From: Shouchella patagoniensis
Lineage (GTDB): Bacteria > Bacillota > Bacilli > Bacillales > Bacillaceae_D
Direction of reading: 5' to 3'
Length of the DNA: 64,000 bases
Assembly: GCF_002019705.1 (NCBI RefSeq)
Contig: NZ_KV917377.1
Span: 1-64,000, forward strand
The notes below the pieces were generated by a model, which worked only from the letters and a program-made list of their open reading frames with translations, did not search any database and had not been told where the DNA came from. This document shows, in pieces, positions 1,790 through 42,093 of this stretch. Numbering within the stretch: the stretch's first letter is position 1; each line of letters begins with the position of its first letter. A program made the translations under genes and the position numbers.

Positions 1790-4156
1790 ATGAGTAATCA
1801 ACAAATAAACAATGAAACTGAATTTCTAGATATGAAGGAGAATTTACAACAAATTGAAGCGGCCCGTGTTGTTTACATTGATGATTTTATTCCGGAAGGG
1901 GAAGAGGAATCCGATCAAACTAGTTATTTTGAACAGGCTCTTGGGACAGGGAATGTTAAACTTATTTTAGGGCCTAAGCGTTATTATGCAACAGTTAAAC
2001 TACCAAGCCGTACAATCATAGAAGGTCAAGGGATGGAGTTAACTACAATTCAGACGCCTAATAATGCACCTGATTTCGAATGGACCGTTTCTGTAAAAGA
2101 TAAGGAAAACGGAGCGGAATATATTGTTGTTAGGGATTTGAGTTTAGATGGTAACCGAAGAAGAGGTTCTGAACCAGCGGGGGGAAGCCGTTCTAGTTGT
2201 TTGACCTATCACGGTGTTAAGTATGGCTGGGTGAGTAATGTTTTTGCTTACAACAGTTCACTGCATGGTTTCGATGTTACTTCAACAGGTCTTGATTATC
2301 ACTATGGCGGAGATGGAACGGTTGATACTGGCCCATCACAATATGTATGGATTGATTCATGTAAGGCAACTGATTGGATTGACGATGGGTTTACTACACA
2401 TCATAGCGAATTTATTACGATTTCTAATTGTTATGCATATGATCCTAATAACAGAGGAAATTGCAACGCGATCGAAATTGATGATGGTAGTCGCCATGTG
2501 ATGTTAACAAACAATTACTCTAAAGGTTGTTACGGGGGTATTGAAGTAAAGGCACATGCTAATTCTAGTGCTGCAAGTAATGTTCATATTATGGGTCACA
2601 TCTCGCGGGAAGATACGCGAAGCTATAACTTCCGCCATATTGGTCATCATACGGCTGATGATCCTGATTCTACAACCGCGTTTCATTTAACGGCAACAAA
2701 CTTAGTTTCGCTCCACCCGAACAATAAGAAGGGATTTCAAAATAATACAGATCCTCGTGCTTTGGTTATTAGTGCTTATACAAACGTGAGCATTACTAAT
2801 TTTACGGCAATTGGAGATTTGGATTATAATTTCGGCAATACACCAGTAGTGGCAATTCAATATAAAGCGAAGAACGTTTCTTTAAATGGCTTTAATATCA
2901 GCCAGTTTAATAATGCGAGTGATGCGATTATTGTGTTTGGAGGAGGTAACAGAGGCGATCAAATCTCCTTAAGCAATATTAATATTTACGATACAGGTGT
3001 AAATAATGGGATTTATATTGGAAGTGGACATGGCAAAGTAACGATTGCAAACGTAAATGCGATCAATTCAAAAGGGGAGGGCAGCAATGCTGTAGAAACC
3101 GCAACCAATTCAGTTAATATTAGTGGCATTTCTACTACAGGATATCAGAATGCGGTTCGAAGTGCAGGTGTTAATTACGTAGAGCCTATTACCGTTATTA
3201 AGGGAGGAGCTCGGATCGCATCAAGCACTGGAGAACCAACTCATGATCAATCAATCATTTTATCAAGTACGTCTTCACCGACAGCATCAGGATCAAAAAC
3301 AATTGTTGCAGCATCATCCAACTCACACGCTGAAGGAGAAGGGTCAGTTGTTTTGGGAAGTGCAGGTAACTCTAGAGCAAGAGGACCTCGTAGTAGCATT
3401 ATTAGCTCCAGTGGTGCCTCTGCAGGCCAACCAAATGGTTGTTTTGGGTCGATGGTATTAGCAAGTAATCTAACGGTCAATCCAGAAAGCTATTCTGTTG
3501 TTGGTGGTTACGGAGCTTCAGGAAATGCGAGCAGCGCAAATCGAAAGTGGGAACTAAATAGTCGCACCGGTGGAGTAACCGCGGTAGGGCAATTTTCTGG
3601 TGGTAGTAGTTTTTCAGATTACGCTGAGTTCTTTGAGAGCATGAATGGGGACTCAATTGAGACAGGTATGCTTGTTACTCTTGATGAAGATAAAATACGA
3701 CTAGCTGAAAATGGAGATGATATTCTTGGTGTTATTTCTGAGACAGCAGCTGTTGTATTAGGTAGTGCAGCTTATCACTGGCAAGGGAGATTTTTAACAA
3801 ATGAGTTTGGCGGAAAAGTATATGAACCTCAATCTGTACGGACGTATGATGTTGACGAAGAAGGAAATACACTTACTACGTACTCAGAGGAAGTAGTTCA
3901 CTTGCCGTTAGAGAACCCAAAATATGATCCAAGCTATGAATATAAAGCTCGTAGTGAACGACCAGAATGGAATATCGTTGGTCTAACGGGCCAAGTGTTT
4001 GTTCGTGTAAATGAAGACGTACAAGCTGGTGATTGGTTAGCAGCTAAATCAGGAATTGGTGTACCGGCGACGCAAGGGAATGTTAAAGCGATGCGAATGA
4101 CAAAAGCATATGATGAAGCTGATGGATATGGCATTGCCCTTTGTTTTATAAAATAA
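1790..4156 (+). CDS. Phage-appendage-like beta-helix protein with Peptidase_G2-like self-cleaving C-terminus
   Basis: The 788-residue product has a parallel beta-helix region (about residues 60-450, pectate-lyase/appendage type, many short Asn/Gly-rich turns), a stretch with YadA-head-like repeats (AEGEGSVVLGS), then a C-terminal region from about residue 590 (GGSSFSDYAEFFES and following) resembling the intramolecular chaperone/autoprotease domain (Peptidase_G2) of Bacillus phage pre-neck appendages such as B. subtilis YomR/YobO. Such proteins trimerise and bind or degrade surface glycan. No signal peptide is visible. Start ATG at 1790 follows GGGAGAGTGATG. It stands alone between the tRNA cluster and tRNA-Leu with no other phage genes, so it may be a relic or domesticated appendage. 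Family call is from motif reading. Confidence 0.7.
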   Translation: MSNQQINNETEFLDMKENLQQIEAARVVYIDDFIPEGEEESDQTSYFEQALGTGNVKLILGPKRYYATVKLPSRTIIEGQGMELTTIQTPNNAPDFEWTVSVKDKENGAEYIVVRDLSLDGNRRRGSEPAGGSRSSCLTYHGVKYGWVSNVFAYNSSLHGFDVTSTGLDYHYGGDGTVDTGPSQYVWIDSCKATDWIDDGFTTHHSEFITISNCYAYDPNNRGNCNAIEIDDGSRHVMLTNNYSKGCYGGIEVKAHANSSAASNVHIMGHISREDTRSYNFRHIGHHTADDPDSTTAFHLTATNLVSLHPNNKKGFQNNTDPRALVISAYTNVSITNFTAIGDLDYNFGNTPVVAIQYKAKNVSLNGFNISQFNNASDAIIVFGGGNRGDQISLSNINIYDTGVNNGIYIGSGHGKVTIANVNAINSKGEGSNAVETATNSVNISGISTTGYQNAVRSAGVNYVEPITVIKGGARIASSTGEPTHDQSIILSSTSSPTASGSKTIVAASSNSHAEGEGSVVLGSAGNSRARGPRSSIISSSGASAGQPNGCFGSMVLASNLTVNPESYSVVGGYGASGNASSANRKWELNSRTGGVTAVGQFSGGSSFSDYAEFFESMNGDSIETGMLVTLDEDKIRLAENGDDILGVISETAAVVLGSAAYHWQGRFLTNEFGGKVYEPQSVRTYDVDEEGNTLTTYSEEVVHLPLENPKYDPSYEYKARSERPEWNIVGLTGQVFVRVNEDVQAGDWLAAKSGIGVPATQGNVKAMRMTKAYDEADGYGIALCFIK

Positions 4157-4269: not shown

Positions 4270-4317
4270 AGTTCTTGTCAGTTGGTGATTACAACAAAGT
4301 CATTAGCAACTACATAT

Positions 4318-4398
4318 GCCGGTGTGGCGGAATTGGCAGACGCGCACGACTCAAAATCGTGTTCCTCTGGAGTGCCGGTTCGACCCCGGCCACCGGTA
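4318..4398 (+). tRNA. tRNA-Leu (CAA); 3' half lies in the prophage attachment site
   Basis: Class II tRNA with anticodon stem CACGA/TCGTG and loop CTCAAAA (anticodon CAA). Acceptor GCCGGTG pairs with CACCGGT, so the terminal pair is G1-U72, and discriminator A is followed by TCC, not CCA. From 4346 onward the gene is identical to attR at 41708-41762, so this 3' part came in with the phage and rebuilds the tRNA. It is the only tRNA-Leu(CAA) in the window. Confidence 0.93.
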
Positions 4399-4400
4399 TC
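4346..4400. repeat. attL: left 55-bp attachment-site repeat
   Basis: Identical over 55 bp to 41708-41762. It covers the anticodon arm, variable arm, T arm and 3' acceptor strand of tRNA-Leu plus two further bases. Sequence diverges immediately on both sides (GCGC versus TTCA to the left; CTTTAAG versus AAAGAAC to the right). Confidence 0.95.
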
Positions 4401-4416
4401 CTTTAAGTCAATTGTG

Positions 4417-4450
4417 GCGGTCTCTAGCGGAAGTTAGGGATCGCTTTTTT
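4417..4450 (+). terminator. Terminator between attL and the integrase (GNRA-capped)
   Basis: Twelve consecutive pairs (5' arm 4417-4428, 3' arm 4433-4444, including G-U pairs) close a GGAA tetraloop and are followed by six T. A diverged copy sits at 41780-41813 with a GCAA loop; at least two stem pairs differ by compensatory changes (T-A to C-G, C-G to T-A), which supports selection on the RNA fold. In the prophage it would stop tRNA-Leu transcripts before int. Confidence 0.8.
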
Positions 4451-4483
4451 GCGTACAATCTGACGTAAAATAGTCGTGTGCCT

Positions 4484-4522
4484 ACCGTCTCTCTTTAAGC
4501 GAAAAGGGGAGGCGGTTTTTTG
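4484..4522 (+). promoter_or_regulatory. Hairpin that buries the integrase ribosome binding site
   Basis: A 13-bp stem (4484-4496 with 4504-4516, loop of 7) contains the whole Shine-Dalgarno sequence GGGGAGG (4506-4512) in its 3' arm. The stem is followed by a T run (4516-4521) and the TTG start at 4520-4522 overlaps the end of that run. The structure could act as a terminator, as a translation block, or both. A degenerate version precedes the integrase remnant at 41884. Confidence 0.65.
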
Positions 4523-5488
4523 TCGTCTAGGCGTAGAAACGTTTTAATCGGTCATGAACTCGATATCGTCGAACAAACTTTAACCAGCGCGGTTTTATCG
4601 TACGACAAAGCGCTCGATTTATTTATTGCGGACGCGAAAAGGAAGGCTCTACGTGATTTTACGATTGTTTATTATCGTAGAGAATGTAACGATTTTCGCG
4701 GGTATCTCGTTCAACAAGAGCACGATTTATTTATACATGAGGTTACGCGAGAAATTATAAATAACTACGTTGAGGATATGCAGATGGTACGGAAATTAAA
4801 AGCTGCCACTATAAATACGAAGCTAAGGTCGATCAGAGCATTCTTCGGGTGGCTCTATAAAAGTAAGTATATCGTCAGTAACCCTATGGAAAGGTACCCG
4901 TTAATGCGCGAAAGGACGGGGAAGGTAGAAACTTTCTCTCTTAAACAATTAAAGCAATTGTTGAACGCGCCGGATAGAAGAACCTTTACAGGCCAAAGAG
5001 ACTACACGTTCTTACTCTTACTACTAGAGACAGGGATACGCTTAAACGAAGCTGCTGGAATATTAGTAGAGGACGTCAAGTTAAGCGAGGGTCAAATTTT
5101 TATACGTAATACTAAGAATCACTTTCACAGATATGTACCTATTCAAGCCAAAATGAAAGAGCAGCTAAGAAGGTATTTAAAATTAAGGGGGTCGTGCGAG
5201 ACTGAGCACTTGTTTGTAACTATTGATGAAACTCAACTGAAAAGAGGGGCAATGCAAAAGATCGTAGCTCATTACGGAGAGAAAGCAAAAATTAAAGGCG
5301 TAAGATGCTCTCCTCATACTATGCGTCATACATTCGCGAAAATGTGTGTAATGAATGGTGCCGGTATATTCGAGTTACAGAAAATACTAGGACACTCAAC
5401 TATGGAAATGGTAAGAGTTTACGTCAACTTGTATTCAAGCGAAGTGAATGATAAGCATAAAAGTTTTTCGCCATTAAACAATTTGTAA
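4520..5488 (+). CDS. int: Phage integrase, tyrosine recombinase
   Basis: The 322-residue protein has a core-binding SAM-like domain (about residues 30-125) and a catalytic domain (about 135-310) with a complete set of active residues: R174, K199, H266, R269, H292 and nucleophile Y301 (RVYVNLY). It sits 120 bp from attL with start TTG at 4520, and so is the enzyme expected to recombine attP with tRNA-Leu. Expression is probably limited by the two leader hairpins at 4417-4522. A promoter at 41573-41602 would face int only in the excised circle. The first 45 residues are closely matched by the remnant at 41884. Confidence 0.93.
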   Translation: MSSRRRNVLIGHELDIVEQTLTSAVLSYDKALDLFIADAKRKALRDFTIVYYRRECNDFRGYLVQQEHDLFIHEVTREIINNYVEDMQMVRKLKAATINTKLRSIRAFFGWLYKSKYIVSNPMERYPLMRERTGKVETFSLKQLKQLLNAPDRRTFTGQRDYTFLLLLLETGIRLNEAAGILVEDVKLSEGQIFIRNTKNHFHRYVPIQAKMKEQLRRYLKLRGSCETEHLFVTIDETQLKRGAMQKIVAHYGEKAKIKGVRCSPHTMRHTFAKMCVMNGAGIFELQKILGHSTMEMVRVYVNLYSSEVNDKHKSFSPLNNL

Positions 5489-6897: not shown

Positions 6898-7896
6898 TTA
6901 AAATTTTATTTTGTTCACTGCGGTATACTCACTGATATTTTTTGCGATGCCTTTTGATGTTAGGTGTGTGTATTTTTCAATCATACGTAAATCTTTATGA
7001 CCTAATATCATTTGTAAGTGTCGAGTATCCCCTCCGTTTTCTAGAAAGTGAGTAGCCGCAGTGTGGCGAAATAAATGTGGATAAACATTCTTTTTGATAC
7101 CTGATCTTAACGCGTACCTTTTAAGCTGCTTTCTAAAATGTTCTGGAGGTAGAGGTGTGCCGTAGTCGGTTAAGAATAAATGATCACTTTGGAAAGTGGC
7201 AGTTAACTTGTTCATTTTCTTTATTAAATGAATTGTTCTTTCTTGTAGAGGGATAACTCTAGGTAGGGCATTTTTCGAATTTCCTGCTCTTATTGTGAAA
7301 AATCCGTTTTGAGTATCCACACTATGTAATTTGGCTGTTAAGGCCTCGTTAATCCGACACATAGAGTCCAGAAGGAAAGTCATAAGCACATAATTTCTAA
7401 AGTCTGGGAAGTTAGAGCGATCCACCTCGCAGAATAGTTTATTTAATTCATCAATCGATAGTATTTCGATATCATTTTCGGTATATTTTATTGACCTCAT
7501 TTTAGCAAGCTTCAATTCTTCGCCGTAATGCTTGCTTACTAAGAAGTCGATAAAGTTATTAACGTTCTTTCGGACGTCATCCGCGTAAGAAGGGGAAAGG
7601 CCCACTTTTTTATTTTTTGAAGCAAAAGGGTTATTTCGACCGTGTGTGTGACTTTCTAGCATGTAAATTATAAATGCTTTCATATTAGTCATTGTCAATT
7701 CTGATACATCTCTCGGTAAATTGGTAACATCTAGGAACTCGGTGAGTACTTTTAAATTATTCTTGTACTTAGCTAGAGTATTCTGACTGACGTTTCTGAC
7801 CTTTTTATCAATTATAAACTCCTCTATTAAGTATTCTAAGTCAGTGTTCTTCTTGATTTTCTTTAGTCTAGGTAGTTTTCTATGGTTGATTTGCAT
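6898..7896 (-). CDS. Second tyrosine recombinase (XerC/D-like)
   Basis: The 332-residue protein has a core-binding domain (about 20-125) and a catalytic domain with R181, K208, H274, R277, H300 and Y309 all present. It is only distantly similar to the integrase at 4520 and is more AT-rich. It lies inside the prophage, converging on the 6548 gene, far from either att site, so it may resolve multimers, invert or move a local segment, or be an acquired gene rather than the prophage integrase. No inverted repeats were found around it by eye. Confidence 0.85.
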   Translation of the reverse strand: MQINHRKLPRLKKIKKNTDLEYLIEEFIIDKKVRNVSQNTLAKYKNNLKVLTEFLDVTNLPRDVSELTMTNMKAFIIYMLESHTHGRNNPFASKNKKVGLSPSYADDVRKNVNNFIDFLVSKHYGEELKLAKMRSIKYTENDIEILSIDELNKLFCEVDRSNFPDFRNYVLMTFLLDSMCRINEALTAKLHSVDTQNGFFTIRAGNSKNALPRVIPLQERTIHLIKKMNKLTATFQSDHLFLTDYGTPLPPEHFRKQLKRYALRSGIKKNVYPHLFRHTAATHFLENGGDTRHLQMILGHKDLRMIEKYTHLTSKGIAKNISEYTAVNKIKF

Positions 7897-7963
7897 AATA
7901 ACTTCATCCTCATATTTAACGGTTTCAATTGGGTTTGAATTTAAATTCTATGAAAAGAAATGA

Positions 7964-7986
7964 AAAACCCCGCTACTTAGAGCGGA
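7964..7986 (-). terminator. Terminator of the third recombinase gene
   Basis: On the minus strand, CCGCTCTAAGTAGCGG is followed by GGTTTTTC. It overlaps the stop codon of the 7977-8543 gene. Confidence 0.65.
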
Positions 7987-8543
7987 GTACTCTCGTAAAT
8001 TGCGTCTATATTATCGTCAGTAATGCCGATGTAAGCTAACGTAACAGCTTGCGATGAGTGTCCGAGCATCGACTGTAGAAAAGCGAGGTCGGTACCGTTC
8101 TTGTACGCGTGGTAACATTGCGTCTTTCGAAGGGTATGCGTCCCGACCTTACCAATCTCGTCCAGTAATCCTAGCCGTTTCACCGCGCCGTTAATGATGT
8201 TATACGCTTGCTGCCGCGAAATGTGTTTTTCGGTACCATCCCCGGACTTTTTTCGCGATGGAAATAGATATTCTTCGTCAGGGCGACCGTTTAGTTTCGT
8301 TATTTCGTCTCGAACGGACTGATTCAACATAATACGGCGTGTCTTTCCAGTCTTAGATTCCGTTATGTAAGCGTATTTGCCTCGAAGATCTCTTATACGT
8401 AGGCAAATCAGATCTGAAATGCGTAAAGCGACGTTAATTCCAAGTACGAATAGGAGCCGATCGCGTCCTGTAAGACTTTCTTTAATCAGTTTGATGTGCT
8501 GCAAACTTCGAATAGGTTCAACTTTACTCGCGCCCGCCTTCAT
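7977..8543 (-). CDS. Catalytic-domain-only tyrosine recombinase
   Basis: At 188 residues this protein lacks the N-terminal core-binding domain yet keeps R41, K64, H136, R139, H162 and Y171. Small recombinases of this form occur in lysogeny modules of Bacillus phages and mobile elements. Its promoter (minus strand TTGACT at 8606-8611, TAATGT at 8583-8588, 17 bp apart) contains an operator identical in layout to those at the repressor locus, so the prophage repressor probably silences it. Start ATG follows TTGGAGGTTGGATAA. Confidence 0.82.
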   Translation of the reverse strand: MKAGASKVEPIRSLQHIKLIKESLTGRDRLLFVLGINVALRISDLICLRIRDLRGKYAYITESKTGKTRRIMLNQSVRDEITKLNGRPDEEYLFPSRKKSGDGTEKHISRQQAYNIINGAVKRLGLLDEIGKVGTHTLRKTQCYHAYKNGTDLAFLQSMLGHSSQAVTLAYIGITDDNIDAIYESTPL

Positions 8544-8635: not shown

Positions 8636-8974
8636 TTATTCTCTTTCTTCATTATCTTGCTCAATTTTTTCATGATACCAATTCTGCATGGCCTCGCTCT
8701 CTACATTAATGGTTATAAGCTCATTTATATCTTTAATGTCCAAAGCGCGAACGATTTTAGATAAGTGATCCAAACTTATTCTATCGACATAACCTCTCGC
8801 CAAGTTGGAAATAGCTGTAGGTCTAATCCCTGATTTTTCAGCTACTTCTTTTTGAGTAAGCCCCCGACTTCTAATTGCCTCTCCGACTTTTAGTTCAATT
8901 ACTGTGCGATCTTCTTCTTCAATACTACTGTTATGTAATTCCTCTAAAGCTTCTTTTCCCTTTTTAATTGGCAA
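8636..8974 (-). CDS. XRE-family phage repressor
   Basis: An XRE helix-turn-helix occupies about residues 28-85 (LTQKEVAEKSGIRPTAISNL is the clear HTH). The likely start is TTG at 8974 (112 residues), because AAAGAGGTG lies 6 bp upstream of it, whereas the longer reading from 8998 would begin inside the -10 TATAAT (8997-9002, minus strand). It is transcribed away from the rightward early operon and sits beside three matching palindromes. Expected to hold the lysogenic state by blocking the rightward early promoter and the recombinase promoter. No peptidase domain for self-cleavage is present, so induction must work otherwise. Confidence 0.85.
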   Translation of the reverse strand: MPIKKGKEALEELHNSSIEEEDRTVIELKVGEAIRSRGLTQKEVAEKSGIRPTAISNLARGYVDRISLDHLSKIVRALDIKDINELITINVESEAMQNWYHEKIEQDNEERE

Positions 8975-8996
8975 TATGTTCACCTCTTTCAATACC

Positions 8997-9017
8997 ATTA
9001 TAACGTATTTACGTGAT
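8997..9017 (-). promoter_or_regulatory. Repressor promoter -10 and operator O2
   Basis: Minus-strand TATAAT (8997-9002) precedes the repressor start; overlapping it is palindrome ATAACG-TATTTA-CGTGAT (9000-9017). Binding here would give autoregulation. Confidence 0.65.
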
Positions 9018-9043: not shown

Positions 9044-9072
9044 TTGACGAAATAACGTTTAAGCGTTATTAT
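9044..9072 (+). promoter_or_regulatory. Rightward early promoter with operator O3
   Basis: TTGACG (9044-9049), 17-bp spacer, TATTAT (9067-9072). The perfect palindrome ATAACG-TTTAAG-CGTTAT (9052-9069) fills the spacer and reaches into the -10, so a bound repressor would exclude RNA polymerase. It drives the operon starting at 9117. Confidence 0.8.
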
Positions 9073-9116: not shown

Positions 9117-9398
9117 ATGGCATTGATTTCACCGGTAGTTGAGCTAGGTTCAATTGAAAACATCGAGGTTCTTCGTTTTGAGGACGGCACCGCGCCGATC
9201 ATGATTACTACATACGCGGTCACGGGTTCTATTACAGTCAAGGTTTACGATAACGACGACGCCGAGCTAGTTTTCGGGGAATGCTCGCTATGGTTTCCGT
9301 GGACCCTCGAAATGCAGCGCGTCATGGAGCAGATCGATCACTACGAAGCGCTCGAATTACTTTCTATATTCGCGGCTCACGGTAGGAACGCAGGCTGA
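9117..9398 (+). CDS. Phage early protein, unknown function
   Basis: A 93-residue, acidic, mostly beta-predicted protein that I do not recognise. It is the first gene under the repressor-controlled promoter, with AAAGGGGCGG upstream of ATG, and its stop overlaps the next start (TGATG). First-gene position means it is expressed immediately on induction; a regulator or host-takeover protein is plausible but unproven. Confidence 0.6.
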   Translation: MALISPVVELGSIENIEVLRFEDGTAPIMITTYAVTGSITVKVYDNDDAELVFGECSLWFPWTLEMQRVMEQIDHYEALELLSIFAAHGRNAG

Positions 9399-9754
9399 TG
9401 GGCGGCATTTGGCGTAAAGTAACGGCGTTTCAACGATACGAAGGCGATCAGTTCCTCGTATTTACGTATGACGCGTGGTGGAACACTGAACAATCAGTAC
9501 TGTATTTCGTGTCAAGCTGGCACAATGAATTAATACAGGCGGACATAAAACAGCGCTTCAACGCCGACATATTCGAAGTTGAGGGCGAAGTGGTAATCGC
9601 CACAGTTGACGCGCTAACGTTCACCGACGAAGACTTCGAGCGGTTCCATGCGAAGCTCTTAGAAACGTCCTTGCTGCGGTTCTTGTACGAGTTGGCGGCG
9701 CGCGATCCGGAATTAAACTACGGATTGGAGGCGTTGCTAGATGAAAACGATTGA
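9398..9754 (+). CDS. Phage early protein, unknown function
   Basis: A 118-residue acidic protein rich in aromatic residues (WRKVTAFQRYEG near the start). Translationally coupled to the 9117 gene by a 1-bp overlap, and its end overlaps the next gene by 14 bp. It shares the general plan of the 9914 product (opening strand, YD, then Trp-containing strand, D-I-E or D-I-H centre), so the two may be distant paralogues. Function unknown. Confidence 0.6.
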   Translation: MGGIWRKVTAFQRYEGDQFLVFTYDAWWNTEQSVLYFVSSWHNELIQADIKQRFNADIFEVEGEVVIATVDALTFTDEDFERFHAKLLETSLLRFLYELAARDPELNYGLEALLDEND

Positions 9755-9914
9755 TAGGCGTATCTCTTACTACTTGCGTAAATGCAACGAGCATCTTGCG
9801 CGGGTTATGCGAGGAGAGAAACCGCCAACGTCGTGGAGGCACGCACGGTTAGTAACGTATAAGGTCGAGCTTAATAGAAGATACGGAGAATACAAAAAAG
9901 GGAGATGTTTATAA
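9741..9914 (+). CDS. Small basic phage early protein
   Basis: A 57-residue, Arg/Lys-rich protein (begins MKTIDRRISYYLRK) that overlaps the upstream gene by 14 bp and the next start by 1 bp (TAATG). Internal GGAGGCGTTGCTAG in the upstream gene supplies a ribosome binding site. Basic charge suggests nucleic acid binding; nothing more can be said. Confidence 0.55.
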   Translation: MKTIDRRISYYLRKCNEHLARVMRGEKPPTSWRHARLVTYKVELNRRYGEYKKGRCL

Positions 9915-10303
9915 TGGCGAAGCTAAAAAGAGTGCCGGTACAGACCGTATATATTGAAACAGGTGGTGCGGTGGCGGTTGATTACTACGATGGGTACTTA
10001 GCTGAAGAATCGAAAGTAGTTTATTGGGTTGAGCATAACCGATTAATGATGAATACTTATCTAATTAACGAAATGAACGACACTTATCAAACTGATTGCG
10101 ATACGGACATACACTTAGCGACTATTTCAGATCCAAGTAAATTTACCATAATGGCTGCGACTACGTGGCACCGAAAGCTTAACTCGGCATCGTTGTTTGA
10201 TTTCATAGTAGCTGAACGGGGCGAAATAGGCGGTAACGATTTAAATTTAAAGAATTTTCTTAAATTTAATACTAACATATCAAGATTGAGAGGGGTAATT
10301 TAA
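9914..10303 (+). CDS. Phage early protein, unknown function
   Basis: A 129-residue protein. ATG at 9914 is preferred over the in-frame ATG at 9905 because AAAGGGAG ends at 9904, nine bases upstream. Fourth gene of the early operon; resembles the 9398 product in length and strand pattern. Function unknown. Confidence 0.6.
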   Translation: MAKLKRVPVQTVYIETGGAVAVDYYDGYLAEESKVVYWVEHNRLMMNTYLINEMNDTYQTDCDTDIHLATISDPSKFTIMAATTWHRKLNSASLFDFIVAERGEIGGNDLNLKNFLKFNTNISRLRGVI

Positions 10304-10304
10304 G

Positions 10305-10634
10305 ATGAAGAACTATTTCAAGGAATTAAAAAGCCTAAAAACCCAAGTTGAACAAGATTTCGACTACTTTAACGAACGGCAAAGCATGATTGATAAACGC
10401 ATCCAAGAACTTAAACAAAGACCCCATATCGACGAGAACGCGGTGGAATTGGAAATGCTGCTTAAAACTCGTCGCGAGGTTAAAGAGAGGGTTCTGCAAT
10501 TACTACCGGTGCGTGACATGTTTAAACATGAGTGGGCAGCGGTAGAAAGCAGAGTCGAGAAGGTTAAGCAGAATAGCGCTCGCATCCAAGACGAGATCAG
10601 AAAGGCGCGGCAACGTGAAAAGGAACTGGTATAA
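10305..10634 (+). CDS. Coiled-coil phage early protein
   Basis: A 109-residue, almost fully helical and highly charged protein with heptad spacing across residues 5-45 and 60-108, so it probably dimerises. Last gene of the early operon before a terminator at 10642. Could be a scaffold or an inhibitor of a host complex; no family recognised. Confidence 0.6.
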   Translation: MKNYFKELKSLKTQVEQDFDYFNERQSMIDKRIQELKQRPHIDENAVELEMLLKTRREVKERVLQLLPVRDMFKHEWAAVESRVEKVKQNSARIQDEIRKARQREKELV

Positions 10635-10641
10635 CGGCATA

Positions 10642-10676
10642 AGGCGATTTCCTCGCGAGGGGAGGTCGTCTTTTTT
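10642..10676 (+). terminator. Terminator of the early operon
   Basis: GGCGATTTCCTC pairs with GAGGGGAGGTCGTC across a short loop and is followed by TTTTTT. It separates the early operon from the repeat array. Confidence 0.75.
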
Positions 10677-10682
10677 GCGTAA

Positions 10683-11420
10683 AAGTGTGCGAAACCTAAA
10701 TTTGAATTGTTTATATAAGTATAAGCGAAAATAAATTAAAAATTTTCGCGGTAAGTGTCCGAGAACAAGAAGTCACATCCCATAACTAGTATAAACACTC
10801 GAAAAGGAGGCGCGGTTATTTTTGCATAATAGTGTCCGAACTCGAATCGGTATACGTCATCATAAGTACAAAGAAAAAAGTTTCTACAAAAACGCGCCAC
10901 TTAACCAACTTACCAAGCATAACTAGTATAGGCGAATTTAAATTATCAGCGAAAGTGTCCGGAACTAGATTGGCATACGTCATCATACATGAAAAACTTC
11001 GTGGAAATGTCCCAATTTAAGTGAATCTAACCCCCTATAGAAAGTATAAGCAACCAAAAGTGCACGTTTTTAAAATCGGTGTCGTAGTATCTGTTGAAGC
11101 GAGAAAATAAACTTGAATCTTTTATGGGGAATGTCCCATAAAAGATTAAGTCTAGTCGTTATATAAGGTACAAAAAACATTTTTGGTGTGCGAAATAACA
11201 AAGTAACCTGCCATAACTAGTATAAGAGAATAAAGTTTACATGAAAATGTGCGAAATGAAGAAGTCATATCCCATAACTAATAACGAGTGATTTTCGCGG
11301 TAAGTGTCCGAGATTGGAAAGTAACCGTTCATAACTATTACAAAGCAAACGAAAAAGTTTCGCGAAAAATGGCCCAAATCATAAAGTCGCCTCGCATAAC
11401 TAGTATAAGATATTTTCCGA
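10683..11420. repeat. Array of about 12 degenerate repeats, non-coding
   Basis: Units begin at about 10685, 10755, 10832, 10893, 10955, 11007, 11060, 11131, 11186, 11247, 11304 and 11369 (steps of 52-77 bp). Box A is (A/G)TGT(C/G)CGA. Box B is AAGTnnCnnn then CATAACTAGTATAAG, and in the clear units (1, 2, 3, 5, 9, 10, 11, 12) the CAT position lies exactly 26 bp after the first base of box A. Box C, between units, is close to TTTTCGCGGTAA or AAGTTTCGCGAAAA. Units 4, 6, 7 and 8 are decayed. No reading frame spans it. It lies between the early-operon terminator and the 11493 gene. Function unknown: candidates are a replication origin, a multi-site protein-binding or decoy region, or a run of small structured RNAs. 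Confidence 0.85.
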
Positions 11421-11492
11421 TGATGGCTGCCGGCGCCGGAGGGAAAGAGCGGATAAAAACTAAAACTAAACCGAAAAGGGAGCGATTTTATT

Positions 11493-12116
11493 ATGAACGC
11501 AATTATTGAAAGCTTAGAGACACACTTTGGTGGAGATATTACGAACGATTTGATGCACTCACAGAATAGATATGTAGTAGATTTTATGATGGAATTTGGT
11601 CTAGCTGCGGCTGACAAGGGAGCGTCTTTATCAGATTATCAAGAGCTAAAAGATCAACTAATAACTTCGAATCCATTCGCATCTGAAAGTGTCGATGATA
11701 CGTCGTACGAAGAAATAGCAGAGGCTTTTCTTTTGATGGGTAAATTAGTTCCTGACGGTCAATTAAAGGACTTTCTTTTAGTAAGTTCCTATACTGTTAT
11801 GATTGCTAACAAAGCAAACAACGCTCATGGAATATTAGACTTGGAAATTAATGACCAATCAAAATTGAAGTTGATGGAAAATGATGCTAATAAAATAAAA
11901 GATTGGAGTAAAGAGTTTAAAAAAATTAAAATGCCTCACGGATTAAAAGGTAAATTTAAAAATGTATTACGACATATAGAAGCCATCGAATACTCGTTTA
12001 GAGCAGGTAATTTTGCACTGATTGCTAGAAATAATGAATACTTTTCAAGAGAAATGGACGAGGTGTTAGAAAGACTTGAAATCAAGGTTTTTGGGGAGAA
12101 GTTACCTTATGAGTAA
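11493..12116 (+). CDS. Phage protein of unknown function downstream of the repeat array
   Basis: A 207-residue, largely helical acidic protein with a more basic middle (residues 140-165). AT-rich compared with neighbours. ATG follows AAAAGGGAGCGATTTTATT. It is the first gene after the array, so any array-borne signal would affect it first. Its stop overlaps the next gene (ATGAGTAA). Not recognised. Confidence 0.6.
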   Translation: MNAIIESLETHFGGDITNDLMHSQNRYVVDFMMEFGLAAADKGASLSDYQELKDQLITSNPFASESVDDTSYEEIAEAFLLMGKLVPDGQLKDFLLVSSYTVMIANKANNAHGILDLEINDQSKLKLMENDANKIKDWSKEFKKIKMPHGLKGKFKNVLRHIEAIEYSFRAGNFALIARNNEYFSREMDEVLERLEIKVFGEKLPYE

Positions 12117-13380: not shown

Positions 13381-13431
13381 CATTTTATAGGCGATACGTC
13401 AACTAATTATATTCCGAAGGAGCTGGTGATT

Positions 13432-14124
13432 ATGGGTAAAGGCAGAACAATGAAAGTAGAAACGGAATATCAGTCGGAAAACTTTTCAATTATCCAATTG
13501 ATTCGCGACCACAGCCGGCTAAAAGACAACGCGGACGAAACTTCGATTACTCTCGCGATGGACCTAGAAGACGCACTTGCCGCCGATATATTCACGACTA
13601 CCGAGCGCCAACTATTAGCGCTTATTTATTATGCCGAAGTGAGCCATCGCCAAGCGGCGGGCTTGCTCGGCCTACAAACGTCGGACACCACGCCAACCCT
13701 CGAAGAAGCACTCGAAAAGTTATCCGCGGTGTTGATGGGCTATCGTTGCGGTCGCATTAAAGTCGATTATAAGCGTTCTGTCTACGAGGATATTCACGCT
13801 TGGCTAGACGCAGTAGGCGAAGGGTTGGCTCCAATATTTATCACCCCTGACGCGGTTCTATCGTGGGCAGCGGAGCAGGGCGATCGTTTAGCGAAGGAAA
13901 CGTTAAGGCAGCGCGTGGAAGGTCCGCCGGTGTTCGAAGATTCGCAGTCCTATCCGTTTTATACCGGGCCTGAATTGGAGCTAATGGATCGCCAATTAAA
14001 AGTTACTTATTCGGACTTAGACAATCAGCGGGCGGAAGGCGTGGTAGTTGGGCGGAAAAGGTCGTTCGACTTCGACGATAACAACTCTCCAACCGTAAGC
14101 AAAACGCGTATTTATAAACGCTAA
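13432..14124 (+). CDS. Sigma-70 region-4-like phage regulator
   Basis: A 230-residue protein whose residues about 50-100 (LTTTERQLLALIYYAEVSHRQ is the key part, ending in a helix-turn-helix with GLLGL) resemble sigma region 4 or the phage ArpU/late-regulator HTH. ATG at 13432 is chosen because AAGGAGC lies 8 bp upstream; GTG at 13426 is too close. Its place just before the small genes and terminase suggests control of late transcription. Region 2 of a true sigma factor is not evident. Confidence 0.55.
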   Translation: MGKGRTMKVETEYQSENFSIIQLIRDHSRLKDNADETSITLAMDLEDALAADIFTTTERQLLALIYYAEVSHRQAAGLLGLQTSDTTPTLEEALEKLSAVLMGYRCGRIKVDYKRSVYEDIHAWLDAVGEGLAPIFITPDAVLSWAAEQGDRLAKETLRQRVEGPPVFEDSQSYPFYTGPELELMDRQLKVTYSDLDNQRAEGVVVGRKRSFDFDDNNSPTVSKTRIYKR

Positions 14125-15157: not shown

Positions 15158-15604
15158 ATGATAAATGGATCTAACCAACTATTCGACAAGCATTCTAGCG
15201 AGGGCGTTTGCTACGCGAAGATGCCGACGGACTTAACGCATTACTTATACGTGCCGGGATTCCGCGGCGACTTAGCGTACCTTTACGCGCTCATCGTCGA
15301 TTACTATAACGCTGACTACGGCTACGCGTTTCCTACGCAGGATCAGCTCGCGCTTAAGACGGGCAAATCTACGCAGTCTGTACGCGCGGACATGCGCCGA
15401 TTAAAGCAGGCGGGACTCATACGTATACTAACGTTTGAAGGACGTAATAATTACGGGTATGTGCCGCTAGTGCCGTTAGGGCAGGCGGAGCTCTGGCGTG
15501 AGTGTCCGGAGGCGGCGGAGAGGTACCGGGAGGCAATCGCTAAGTTGGACGAGGAGAAAAGAGCGAACCGCGAGAAGCAGGCGAGGAAAAGAGGCGGCGA
15601 TTAA
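15158..15604 (+). CDS. Winged-helix replication-type protein
   Basis: A 148-residue protein with a helix-turn-helix at about residues 60-98 (FPTQDQLALKTGKSTQSVR) followed by a beta wing (IRILTFEGRNNYGYVPLVPL) and a charged tail. This layout matches the N-terminal domain of phage replication initiators and DnaD-like proteins in Bacillus phages, without a C-terminal helicase-loader part. Three tandem 23-24-bp repeats begin one base after the stop codon, a position typical for initiator-binding iterons. Start ATG after CTGGAGGCTATAACT. Confidence 0.6.
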   Translation: MINGSNQLFDKHSSEGVCYAKMPTDLTHYLYVPGFRGDLAYLYALIVDYYNADYGYAFPTQDQLALKTGKSTQSVRADMRRLKQAGLIRILTFEGRNNYGYVPLVPLGQAELWRECPEAAERYREAIAKLDEEKRANREKQARKRGGD

Positions 15605-15674
15605 TAGTACCCTTAGTATTCTATAGGTAGTACCCATAGGATTTCATAGGTACGTACCGCTAGGATTCTATAGG
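15605..15674. repeat. Three tandem 23-24-bp repeats (iteron-like)
   Basis: Copies at 15605-15627, 15628-15650 and 15651-15674 share TA(C)GTACC at the start and TAGGATTCTATAGG (with small changes) at the end. They follow the winged-helix gene immediately and are followed by AT-rich DNA (TTAACTATATTTATGTAACTA). Layout suggests binding sites for the 15158 product and a candidate origin. Confidence 0.7.
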
Positions 15675-15941
15675 TTAACTATATTTATGTAACTAGACTT
15701 ATTAACTAGATTTAAAGTAATTGCAGGACGTTTAAGAGAAAAGGGCAATTCGGGAAGAAAATCACTTCCCTCAGCTTGCGTCAAGAAGATCACTTTCCTT
15801 AGCCATAGAAGCCGCGAAAGATCTTAAATATAAAAGAAAGAGCGTCGCAGACAAGGGAAGGTTGGCCGCCCGCCGCCCGCGGTGCCGAATATTAAAAACG
15901 TGGCAGGGGACATTATTTAAAAATGAAAAGGAGTCGATAAG
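15675..15941. other. Non-coding region after the iteron-like repeats
   Basis: AT-rich at first, then a GGGAAG...CTTCCC hairpin (15752-15770), a purine-rich stretch, and a GC-rich patch (GCCGCCCGCCGCCCGCGG near 15866-15884). The end carries AAAAGGAG for the next gene. No credible reading frame. Confidence 0.5.
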
Positions 15942-16598: not shown

Positions 16599-17006
16599 AT
16601 GGCTTTTAAGAAACTTAAGCCGGAGCATTATATTGCTATCGGTTATTTGTCGATGCCTAAAAAGGGTGGCAAGACAATGGAAGAAATTGCGGAAGAGTGT
16701 GAGGTGCACCGCGCAACTATTTACGATTGGCTGAAAGATCCGGTGTTCGAACGTGAGCTTAAACGGACAATCACACGGAACACCCTCGCTAGGTTACCGG
16801 AAGTACTCGAATCCATACCGGACCATATCATACGCGACGGCAATGCGGCTATGCTTAAGCACTTCTTACAGATGCACAGTATGCTATCGGAGCACCACGT
16901 CGTTACGGATACGCGGTCAGGCGATAGTACTAACGTAGATGCTGCGCGTGCTAAGGTCGAGGAGTTCCGTAAGCAACAGCAAGTTAAGGCGGAGGGTAAC
17001 GAGTAG
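16599..17006 (+). CDS. terS: Terminase small subunit (phBC6A51-type HTH)
   Basis: A 135-residue protein with an N-terminal helix-turn-helix (about residues 25-55, MEEIAEECEVHRATIYDWL) that recognises the packaging site, followed by a helical oligomerisation part. Matches the phBC6A51 family of small terminase subunits in Bacillus prophages. ATG follows AAAGGGGATTTATTTA. Unusually, about 900 bp separate it from the large subunit. Confidence 0.75.
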   Translation: MAFKKLKPEHYIAIGYLSMPKKGGKTMEEIAEECEVHRATIYDWLKDPVFERELKRTITRNTLARLPEVLESIPDHIIRDGNAAMLKHFLQMHSMLSEHHVVTDTRSGDSTNVDAARAKVEEFRKQQQVKAEGNE

Positions 17007-41707: not shown

Positions 41708-41762
41708 ACGACTCAAAATCGTGTTCCTCTGGAGTGCCGGTTCGACCCCGGCCACCGGTATC
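41708..41762. repeat. attR: right 55-bp attachment-site repeat
   Basis: Perfect copy of 4346-4400. It holds only the 3' part of a tRNA-Leu gene; the D arm and 5' acceptor are absent, so it is not a tRNA. Because an integrase remnant of the same family follows, this copy probably also served as attL of an older element. Confidence 0.93.
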
Positions 41763-41779
41763 AAAGAACGTACAAGATG

Positions 41780-41813
41780 GCGGCTTTTAGCGCAAGCTAA
41801 GGGTCGCTTTTTT
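41780..41813 (+). terminator. GNRA-capped terminator of the second element
   Basis: Twelve pairs (41780-41791 with 41796-41807), GCAA loop, six T. Same design as 4417-4450 with compensatory base changes. Confidence 0.78.
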
Positions 41814-41883
41814 GCTTTTAATAATTCGTTAGATGGTCGTATGCTTACCGTCTCTCATTTAAACAGAATGGAGAGTCGTTTTT

Positions 41884-42093
41884 TTGTCGTCTAGGAGAAA
41901 AAATGTTTTAAACGGTCATGAGCTCGATATCGTCGAACAAACGTTGATCAGCACAATTATTTTGTTTGATAAAGCGATGGATTTATTTATAGCGGACGCC
42001 AAACGGAAAGCGTTGAAAACTAAGCAAGATGTTCTTTTTAAGTACCAAAACATATCAAAAAGAAGAACTTTGGCATCTTCAAGGGGGAATTAA
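41884..42093 (+). pseudogene. Integrase remnant of a second, related prophage
   Basis: The first about 45 codons (opens MSSRRKNVLNGHELDIVEQT, later LFIADAKRKAL) are nearly those of the integrase at 4520; after residue 46 similarity stops and the frame ends 24 codons later. The TTG start, T run and upstream leader are conserved too. So the 3' 85% of this integrase has been deleted. Confidence 0.88.

Follow-up and report, generated by a model that had tools for sequence, protein, structure and literature searches.

Twelve head-to-tail two-box units ahead of the second operon of a Shouchella prophage: a probable phage control region of unusual form

There are phage middle promoters that need a phage activator or sigma factor; they are off the host housekeeping consensus and come into use after the early genes. 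The stoperators of Cluster A mycobacteriophages are, in excerpts from two accounts, many asymmetric sites oriented with transcription (PMC4351075, PMC9283540). A repeated intergenic element of a Bacillus prophage, the SPBRE of SPbeta, is present at various places and has a 15-bp motif bound by MrpR, a protein of tyrosine-recombinase fold whose catalytic residues are lost (PMC10516654, in excerpt). From similarly partial texts, the start-associated sequences of Cluster K are repeated, many of them intergenic, and linked to translation starts (PMC3203893, PMC4351075), and the 17-bp repeats of Cluster O have dyad symmetry and are genome-wide, with a third of them in coding DNA (PMC4351075). The array dealt with here consists of 12 units in a single gap of a Shouchella patagoniensis prophage and, judging from sequence comparison, is quite likely a control region of some kind. 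The window, i.e. the whole stretch of DNA analysed, comprises the first 64,000 nucleotides of contig 1 in a genome of 4.65 Mb, and the prophage is in the first part of it. Among the matches listed from the open-licence literature, there was no description of this array.

The prophage adjoins a tRNA-Leu gene (4317-4401). From there the order is integrase (4520), HTH and further recombinase genes, an XRE-like regulator on the reverse strand (8636-8998), a small early operon (9117-10634), the array, and a second operon from 11493; the terminase, portal and head genes begin at 16599. The location originally given for the array, between an early-operon terminator and the next gene block, is borne out (Table 1). 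IMG/VR contig 2916853388 is the same phage, being identical over the 7120 bases compared. The one prophage has three tyrosine recombinase genes (4520-5488, 6898-7896 and 7977-8543), the third of which, with its 188 aa, seemingly encodes the catalytic part only. Downstream of the array, the protein from 13426-14124 weakly resembles phage sigma factors (phrog_3512, E 3.1e-7). Much further on, 41708-42011 is ~80% identical to 4346-4647, which comprises the tRNA-Leu end and the integrase start; it may represent the right attachment site, or else a second element in decay.

Table 1. Coordinates of the array units and of associated features, in the window unless another locus is named
Feature	Position	Strand	Remarks
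Early-operon sigma-A-like promoter, TTGACG-17-TATTAT	9044..9072	+	consensus match only; served as control
Early-operon protein, A7 family, 118 aa	9398..9754	+	candidate trans-acting factor; 71% identical in L013
Second A7-family protein, 129 aa, paralogue of 9398-9754	9914..10303	+	77% identical in L013
Last early-operon gene, 109 aa	10305..10634	+	identity 62% L013, 61% L067, 56% L068
Early-operon intrinsic terminator	10641..10672	+	sequence scan
Unit 1, type T1, GTGTGCGAAACC..TTGTTTATATAAGTATAAG	10685..10725	+	90% over 52 bp with L012
Unit 2, type T3, GTGTCCGA..AAGTCACAT..CATAACTAGTATAA	10755..10795	+	
Unit 3, type T4, GTGTCCGAA..GGTATACGTCATCATAAGTA	10832..10872	+	
Unit 4, type T3, degenerate box A	10892..10932	+	
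Unit 5, type T4	10955..10995	+	
Unit 6, type T6, ATGTCCCAA..AAAGTATAAG, 36-bp spacing	11007..11050	+	by eye; spacing also at L013 10695
Unit 7, type T2, GTGCACGTTTTTA..GTCGTAGTATC, 26-bp spacing	11060..11091	+	alignment A2; 82% over 55 bp with L012
Unit 8, T6 variant, overlaps palindrome 11116-11147	11131..11172	+	placed by eye
Unit 9, type T3	11186..11226	+	
Unit 10, type T3	11247..11287	+	
Unit 11, type T3	11304..11344	+	
Unit 12, type T3	11369..11409	+	
Conserved leader TCCGATGATGG..CGCCGGAGG..GGAGCGATTTTA..ATG, array to first gene	11416..11495	+	alignment with L113, L115
First gene of downstream operon, 207 aa, without family	11493..12116	+	
Winged-helix gene, repeats and block	window 15158-15880; L013 11571-12220; L012 14329-14977; L070 17400-18111		

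About twelve units had been described and 12 were located, head to tail, at 10685-11410, with start positions that confirm steps of 52 to 77 bp from one to the next. Their components are far more frequent than in 1000 dinucleotide shuffles of 10641-11440: box A is present 10 times (shuffle maximum 3), CATAACTA six times (maximum 1) and, with a stricter box A, the 26-bp phase (from the first base of box A to the CAT in box B) seven times (maximum 1). When the unit at 10892 with its degenerate box A is included, this exact phase is found in eight of the 12, as had been claimed. The notion of a single rigid module did not survive. There are about five types of unit, named T1, T2, T3, T4 and T6, and as the distance from box A to AGTAT differs between them, being 33 bp in T1, T3 and T4, 26 in T2 and 36 in T6, the array is not one rigid module. 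Common to all types are a box A that follows A-rich DNA and a AGTATAAG-like end. The middle parts are type-specific and can recombine, e.g. the unit at 10183 of the related prophage L013 has a T3 middle and a T1 end. The further element described as box C does exist as a stretch just 5′ of box A but, by eye, it is variable and TTTT-N5-AAAA-like. With regard to the supposed lack of any reading frame, three mechanical ORFs of at least 60 aa do overlap the array (10832-11020, forward, 62 aa; 11237-11617, reverse, 126 aa; 11288-11509, forward, 73 aa), but no evidence was found for any of them being a gene.

That each conserved, discrete unit yields one small RNA had been among the original suggestions, and there is a hairpin at 11116-11147 (z -4.0), where a strongly folding palindrome, its arms perfect over 13 bp, overlaps unit 8. 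However, the other 11 of the 12 units do not exceed shuffles in folding (z -1.05 to 1.50), Rfam gave no match up to E 1, and the stretch transcribed 3′ of box B would be variable linker, all of which makes this reading extremely improbable. A tRNA scan of the array gave none. To our knowledge, neither Spo0A-like nor LexA-like nor other Bacillus boxes fit the units.

Absence of the array from related phages, or lack of conservation there, had been named at the outset as grounds for giving it up; it is instead conserved in related prophages, and the prediction stands in this respect. In L013, a prophage of Shouchella xiaoxiensis (genome G001), the same unit types are present in another order in the same syntenic gap, where a terminator stands behind the early-gene homologues and is succeeded by ~ten units (seven by model R1, two by model R2 and one T6 by eye) and then by ParB-like and HTH_36 genes. 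A larger phage, L012 (genome G005), has three solo units, all intergenic and oriented toward the next gene: a T2 and a T1 unit in the space that separates a terminator from an HTH_36 DNA-binding gene, and a second T2 unit (3561) in the gap before a 203-aa gene without family. The AGTAT of the T1 unit is 33 bp before the start codon of the HTH_36 gene, and that of the T2 unit at 3561 is 29 bp before the start codon of the 203-aa gene, which is where a -10 element would fit. Every unit in the window, L013 and L012 is oriented toward downstream genes. As to late control, one of the roles first suggested, the units in L012 and L013 precede replication-type genes (HTH_36, ParB-like), not head or tail genes, apart from the solo L012 unit ahead of the 203-aa gene.

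Two further prophages have the corresponding gap filled otherwise. In L068 (genome G008), which has related early genes, it is occupied by a different array with four units of two types, and in L067, the second prophage of G005, by a scar without units. The L068 array (7420-7710) is intergenic and behind a similar terminator, its types being TTTAGCTGTCTTAGCTTAATAGGGA and TTAGCTGGACTAGC-like, and among 60 genomes searched it was found only in its own. The L067 scar (7396-8218) has one 23-bp repeat resembling the repeats at window 15605, then gene pieces with no clear start. Variation in copy number and order from phage to phage could be taken as a sign of short repeats of a selfish or mobile kind, copied within intergenic DNA and having no phage role; against this, two arrays retain each of the five types, always in the same direction and never outside gaps that precede genes, and array-like gaps lie behind the same early protein family in other genera (see below), so mobility of this sort is highly improbable as the explanation.

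In the window, models R1 and R2 match only in the array gap. Since the matches of the models are for the most part the sequences used to build them (all but L013 10498 for R1, all five for R2), R1 and R2 restate the alignments. Outside the three known prophages, R1 gave only weak matches in 41 genomes of the family, and in 397 genomes of the order R2 matched G000, G005 and, as one weak match, G135 (E 0.01); G001, not among the R2 matches, is presumably outside the 397. A box pattern with one mismatch allowed had 15 forward and four reverse matches in 13 genomes of the genus, five of them in arrays, with no excess over a reversed control pattern, for which the same genomes gave 16 and nine. An exact box match before a chromosomal gene of G002 is probably due to chance. 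A GTDB pattern scan gave 14 matches. L061 (S. xiaoxiensis) alone coincides with a known place of units, and the other 13 (L049-L060 and L062) are in taxa that are, by title, unrelated; on a rough estimate, ~seven matches would be expected by chance. Loci L014, L006 and L007, from the first BLAST matches in G095, G127 and G049, were without units in a box scan. Neither the array nor the 109-aa product of the last early-operon gene had a match in the phage and plasmid collections.

Common to all three unit-bearing Shouchella prophages is a family of early-operon proteins, A7, and its distribution bears on what might read the units. The alignment comprises the two window members, two in L013, L067 6514-6870 and L012 15578-15934. 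The window members are paralogues (hhalign probability 86, E 4.9e-6), and that of L012 joins by profile comparison (probability 88.9, E 2.4e-6), the probability against the 9914 pair alone being only 14.9. In G008, host of L068, A7 is absent from the whole genome. No known activator, sigma or regulator family was matched by the A7 proteins beyond a weak Arc-like match (one of eight members, E 0.0041), other weak matches being to a helicase, a transporter ATPase and R.SwaI.

Eight further A7 loci were found among 298 genomes, and two of these loci, L113 and L115, have an array-like gap behind the A7 gene; for the other six the 1.3 kb behind each is without one. L113 and L115 are from two other genera of the bacterial family and have putative diverged units on the forward strand. 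For each, none of 200 shuffles came up to the summed score of its four best units, the reverse strand being low, and in controls, i.e. five stretches and the L068 array, 25 to 200 of 200 did so, with the reservations that the limits of the L113 and L115 regions were set after looking and that only two of the six array-less A7 loci were among the controls. For L113 the best single unit score was reached by two of 200 shuffles. R1 gave weak matches in 21 kb of L113 (E 4e-4, 0.034 and 1.5) and none in L115, R2 matched neither, and a weak R1 match in G022 (E 0.08), obtained before the A7 search, falls inside the L113 array. On this weaker evidence, the two gaps would hold diverged versions of the units. 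The leader between array and first gene aligns with L113 and L115 and was not seen in L013 or L012; its pattern matched only G000 and G022 in 397 genomes. In viral contigs there were six leader matches, one being the window's phage and the other five (L120-L124) chance matches within coding sequence of unrelated phages. As for related loci, viral contigs likewise yielded the window's own phage only, with none for the L115 and L113 proteins, and the A7 protein of L115 had no match in the phage collection. All five unit-bearing prophages thus have A7, but as two of them were found through it, the link between A7 and units is partly circular. Independent support is consequently limited to the three out of three Shouchella prophages. 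Of the prophages lacking units, L067 has A7, which counts against the link, as does the presence of arrays at only two of the eight newly found A7 loci; L068 is without A7.

A replication origin had been another of the roles envisaged, and here a competing location is relevant. A small HTH_36 winged-helix gene of the window recurs in L013 and L012 (at 37 and 23% identity), and is followed by phage-specific repeats (three of 23 bp and three of 13 bp in the window) and then by a conserved non-coding block of ~110 bp (within 15673-15880) that is 82-83% identical. A second copy in G005, L070, has the block at 81%. From its layout alone, this combination of gene, repeats and block is probably a modular replication origin with its initiator. 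The block was found only in G000 and G005 among 299 genomes of the order, had no match in phage records or Rfam, and on folding, this block, near position 15.7 kb, gave nothing convincing. Given a separate winged-helix gene with its own repeats and conserved block, an origin was dropped as first choice for the array. That the units are an origin or partition site, bound by an initiator or a ParB-like protein, would accord with their tandem, iteron-like layout and with a ParB-like gene after the array in L013 and as second gene after the units in L012. However, no ParB-like gene was detected with PHROGs among 20 window proteins (two more short ORFs matched nothing), the better candidate has phage-specific repeats of its own, and the solo units of L012 are within ~130 bp of gene starts, so the proposal is improbable.

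Iteron origins have their repeats beside a matched initiator gene, an arrangement not found for the array in the window, where the initiator candidate and its repeats are at 15158-15714 and the array units 3.7 kb upstream; in L012 the units do adjoin the gene for the initiator candidate. Read by eye, the HTH_36-linked repeats differ between phages while the units do not, and hence the HTH_36 protein is probably not the reader of the units. T3 units share a sequence of seven bases, TAACTAG, with the 13-bp repeats found in the window and in L013; this may be chance but would otherwise speak for HTH_36 reading the units.

The regions with units follow a terminator or are otherwise intergenic, and presumably supply the start for the next gene. 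With a crude consensus rule for sigma-A-like promoters (-35 TTGACA and -10 TATAAT, 16-18 bp apart, on the reading strand) and regions chosen by hand, no pair was found on the reading strand of seven second-operon regions (2916 bp, L068 array included), the mean in 300 simulations being 4.07, with five having none. The reverse strands of the seven regions have six such pairs. A sigma-A-like promoter was found in all four of the early-operon gaps that served as controls; in short gaps about one match per shuffle is expected by chance, both strands considered, and these controls are therefore weak one by one.

A protein-bound control site repeated many times is still the best class of explanation among those originally offered, of which origin and small RNA are disfavoured. 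The mechanism proposed here is that the early operon would be read from its sigma-A-like promoter and transcription would stop at the terminator. Each unit would be a directional promoter/operator module, not of sigma-A type, in which the AGTATAAG-like box B takes the place of a -10 element, and box A, in most units 33 bp further upstream, is where an activator or alternative sigma-like factor makes contact. An early-operon product, for which the two A7 proteins are the best candidates, or a host factor would then let transcription start in the array and run on into the replication/middle genes. Speaking against a promoter role, three spacings between box A and box B fit poorly with one RNA polymerase geometry. 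Overall, we tentatively propose that the array may be a bank of non-sigma-A promoters/operators for the second operon, perhaps switched by an early protein, and it is probably a phage-specific on-switch region of unusual form. The more far-reaching claim of a new switch, with an early family without known relatives directing RNA polymerase to about twelve non-sigma-A modules, shuffled in boxes and copies, in at least three genera, is doubtful.

The main rival to the promoter/operator bank has the units as operators or stoperator-like roadblocks, at which a repressor in the lysogen blocks starts or read-through into the second operon. The units are asymmetric sites all facing in the direction of transcription, behind a terminator and before lytic-type genes, as such a role would have it. 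Though not decisively, the candidate repressors count against it, since they differ while the units are conserved: the window has an XRE-like one, L012 a distant one (29% over 48 aa), and in L013 blastp found none alike, its best match (E 0.17) being an HTH protein of 74 aa at another place. The confinement of R1 and R2 matches to one gap of the window is also unfavourable, and a repressor array seems somewhat unlikely.

If the promoter/operator bank were real, it would show by what route a family of temperate phages moves on from early to middle genes when there is no recognisable promoter, and both a small protein family and a DNA module open to direct test would have been named. The twelve copies, with many control modules in one gap, would also provide a natural case for why phages multiply control sites.

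With stoperators, the array shares the feature of many asymmetric, direction-bound phage sites. Stoperators, however, are genome-wide and bound by the immunity repressor, whereas the array has its 12 units in one gap, with two boxes over ~41 bp and several types, and, by models R1 and R2, shows no wider spread in the window. Like SPBRE, it is a repeated, intergenic and putatively regulatory element of a prophage, but SPBRE is spread over various places, and in contrast to MrpR, the recombinases of the window (4520, 6898 and 7977) are, by eye, complete in their catalytic residues. For the repeats of Clusters K and O, the excerpted accounts have no tandem array with a two-box phase, unlike what is seen here. 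The comparison with middle promoters is limited by the A7 candidates matching no known activator or sigma family. With its two-box modules, of several types, packed in tandem into a single gap, the array is a variant among the known repeated phage control elements.
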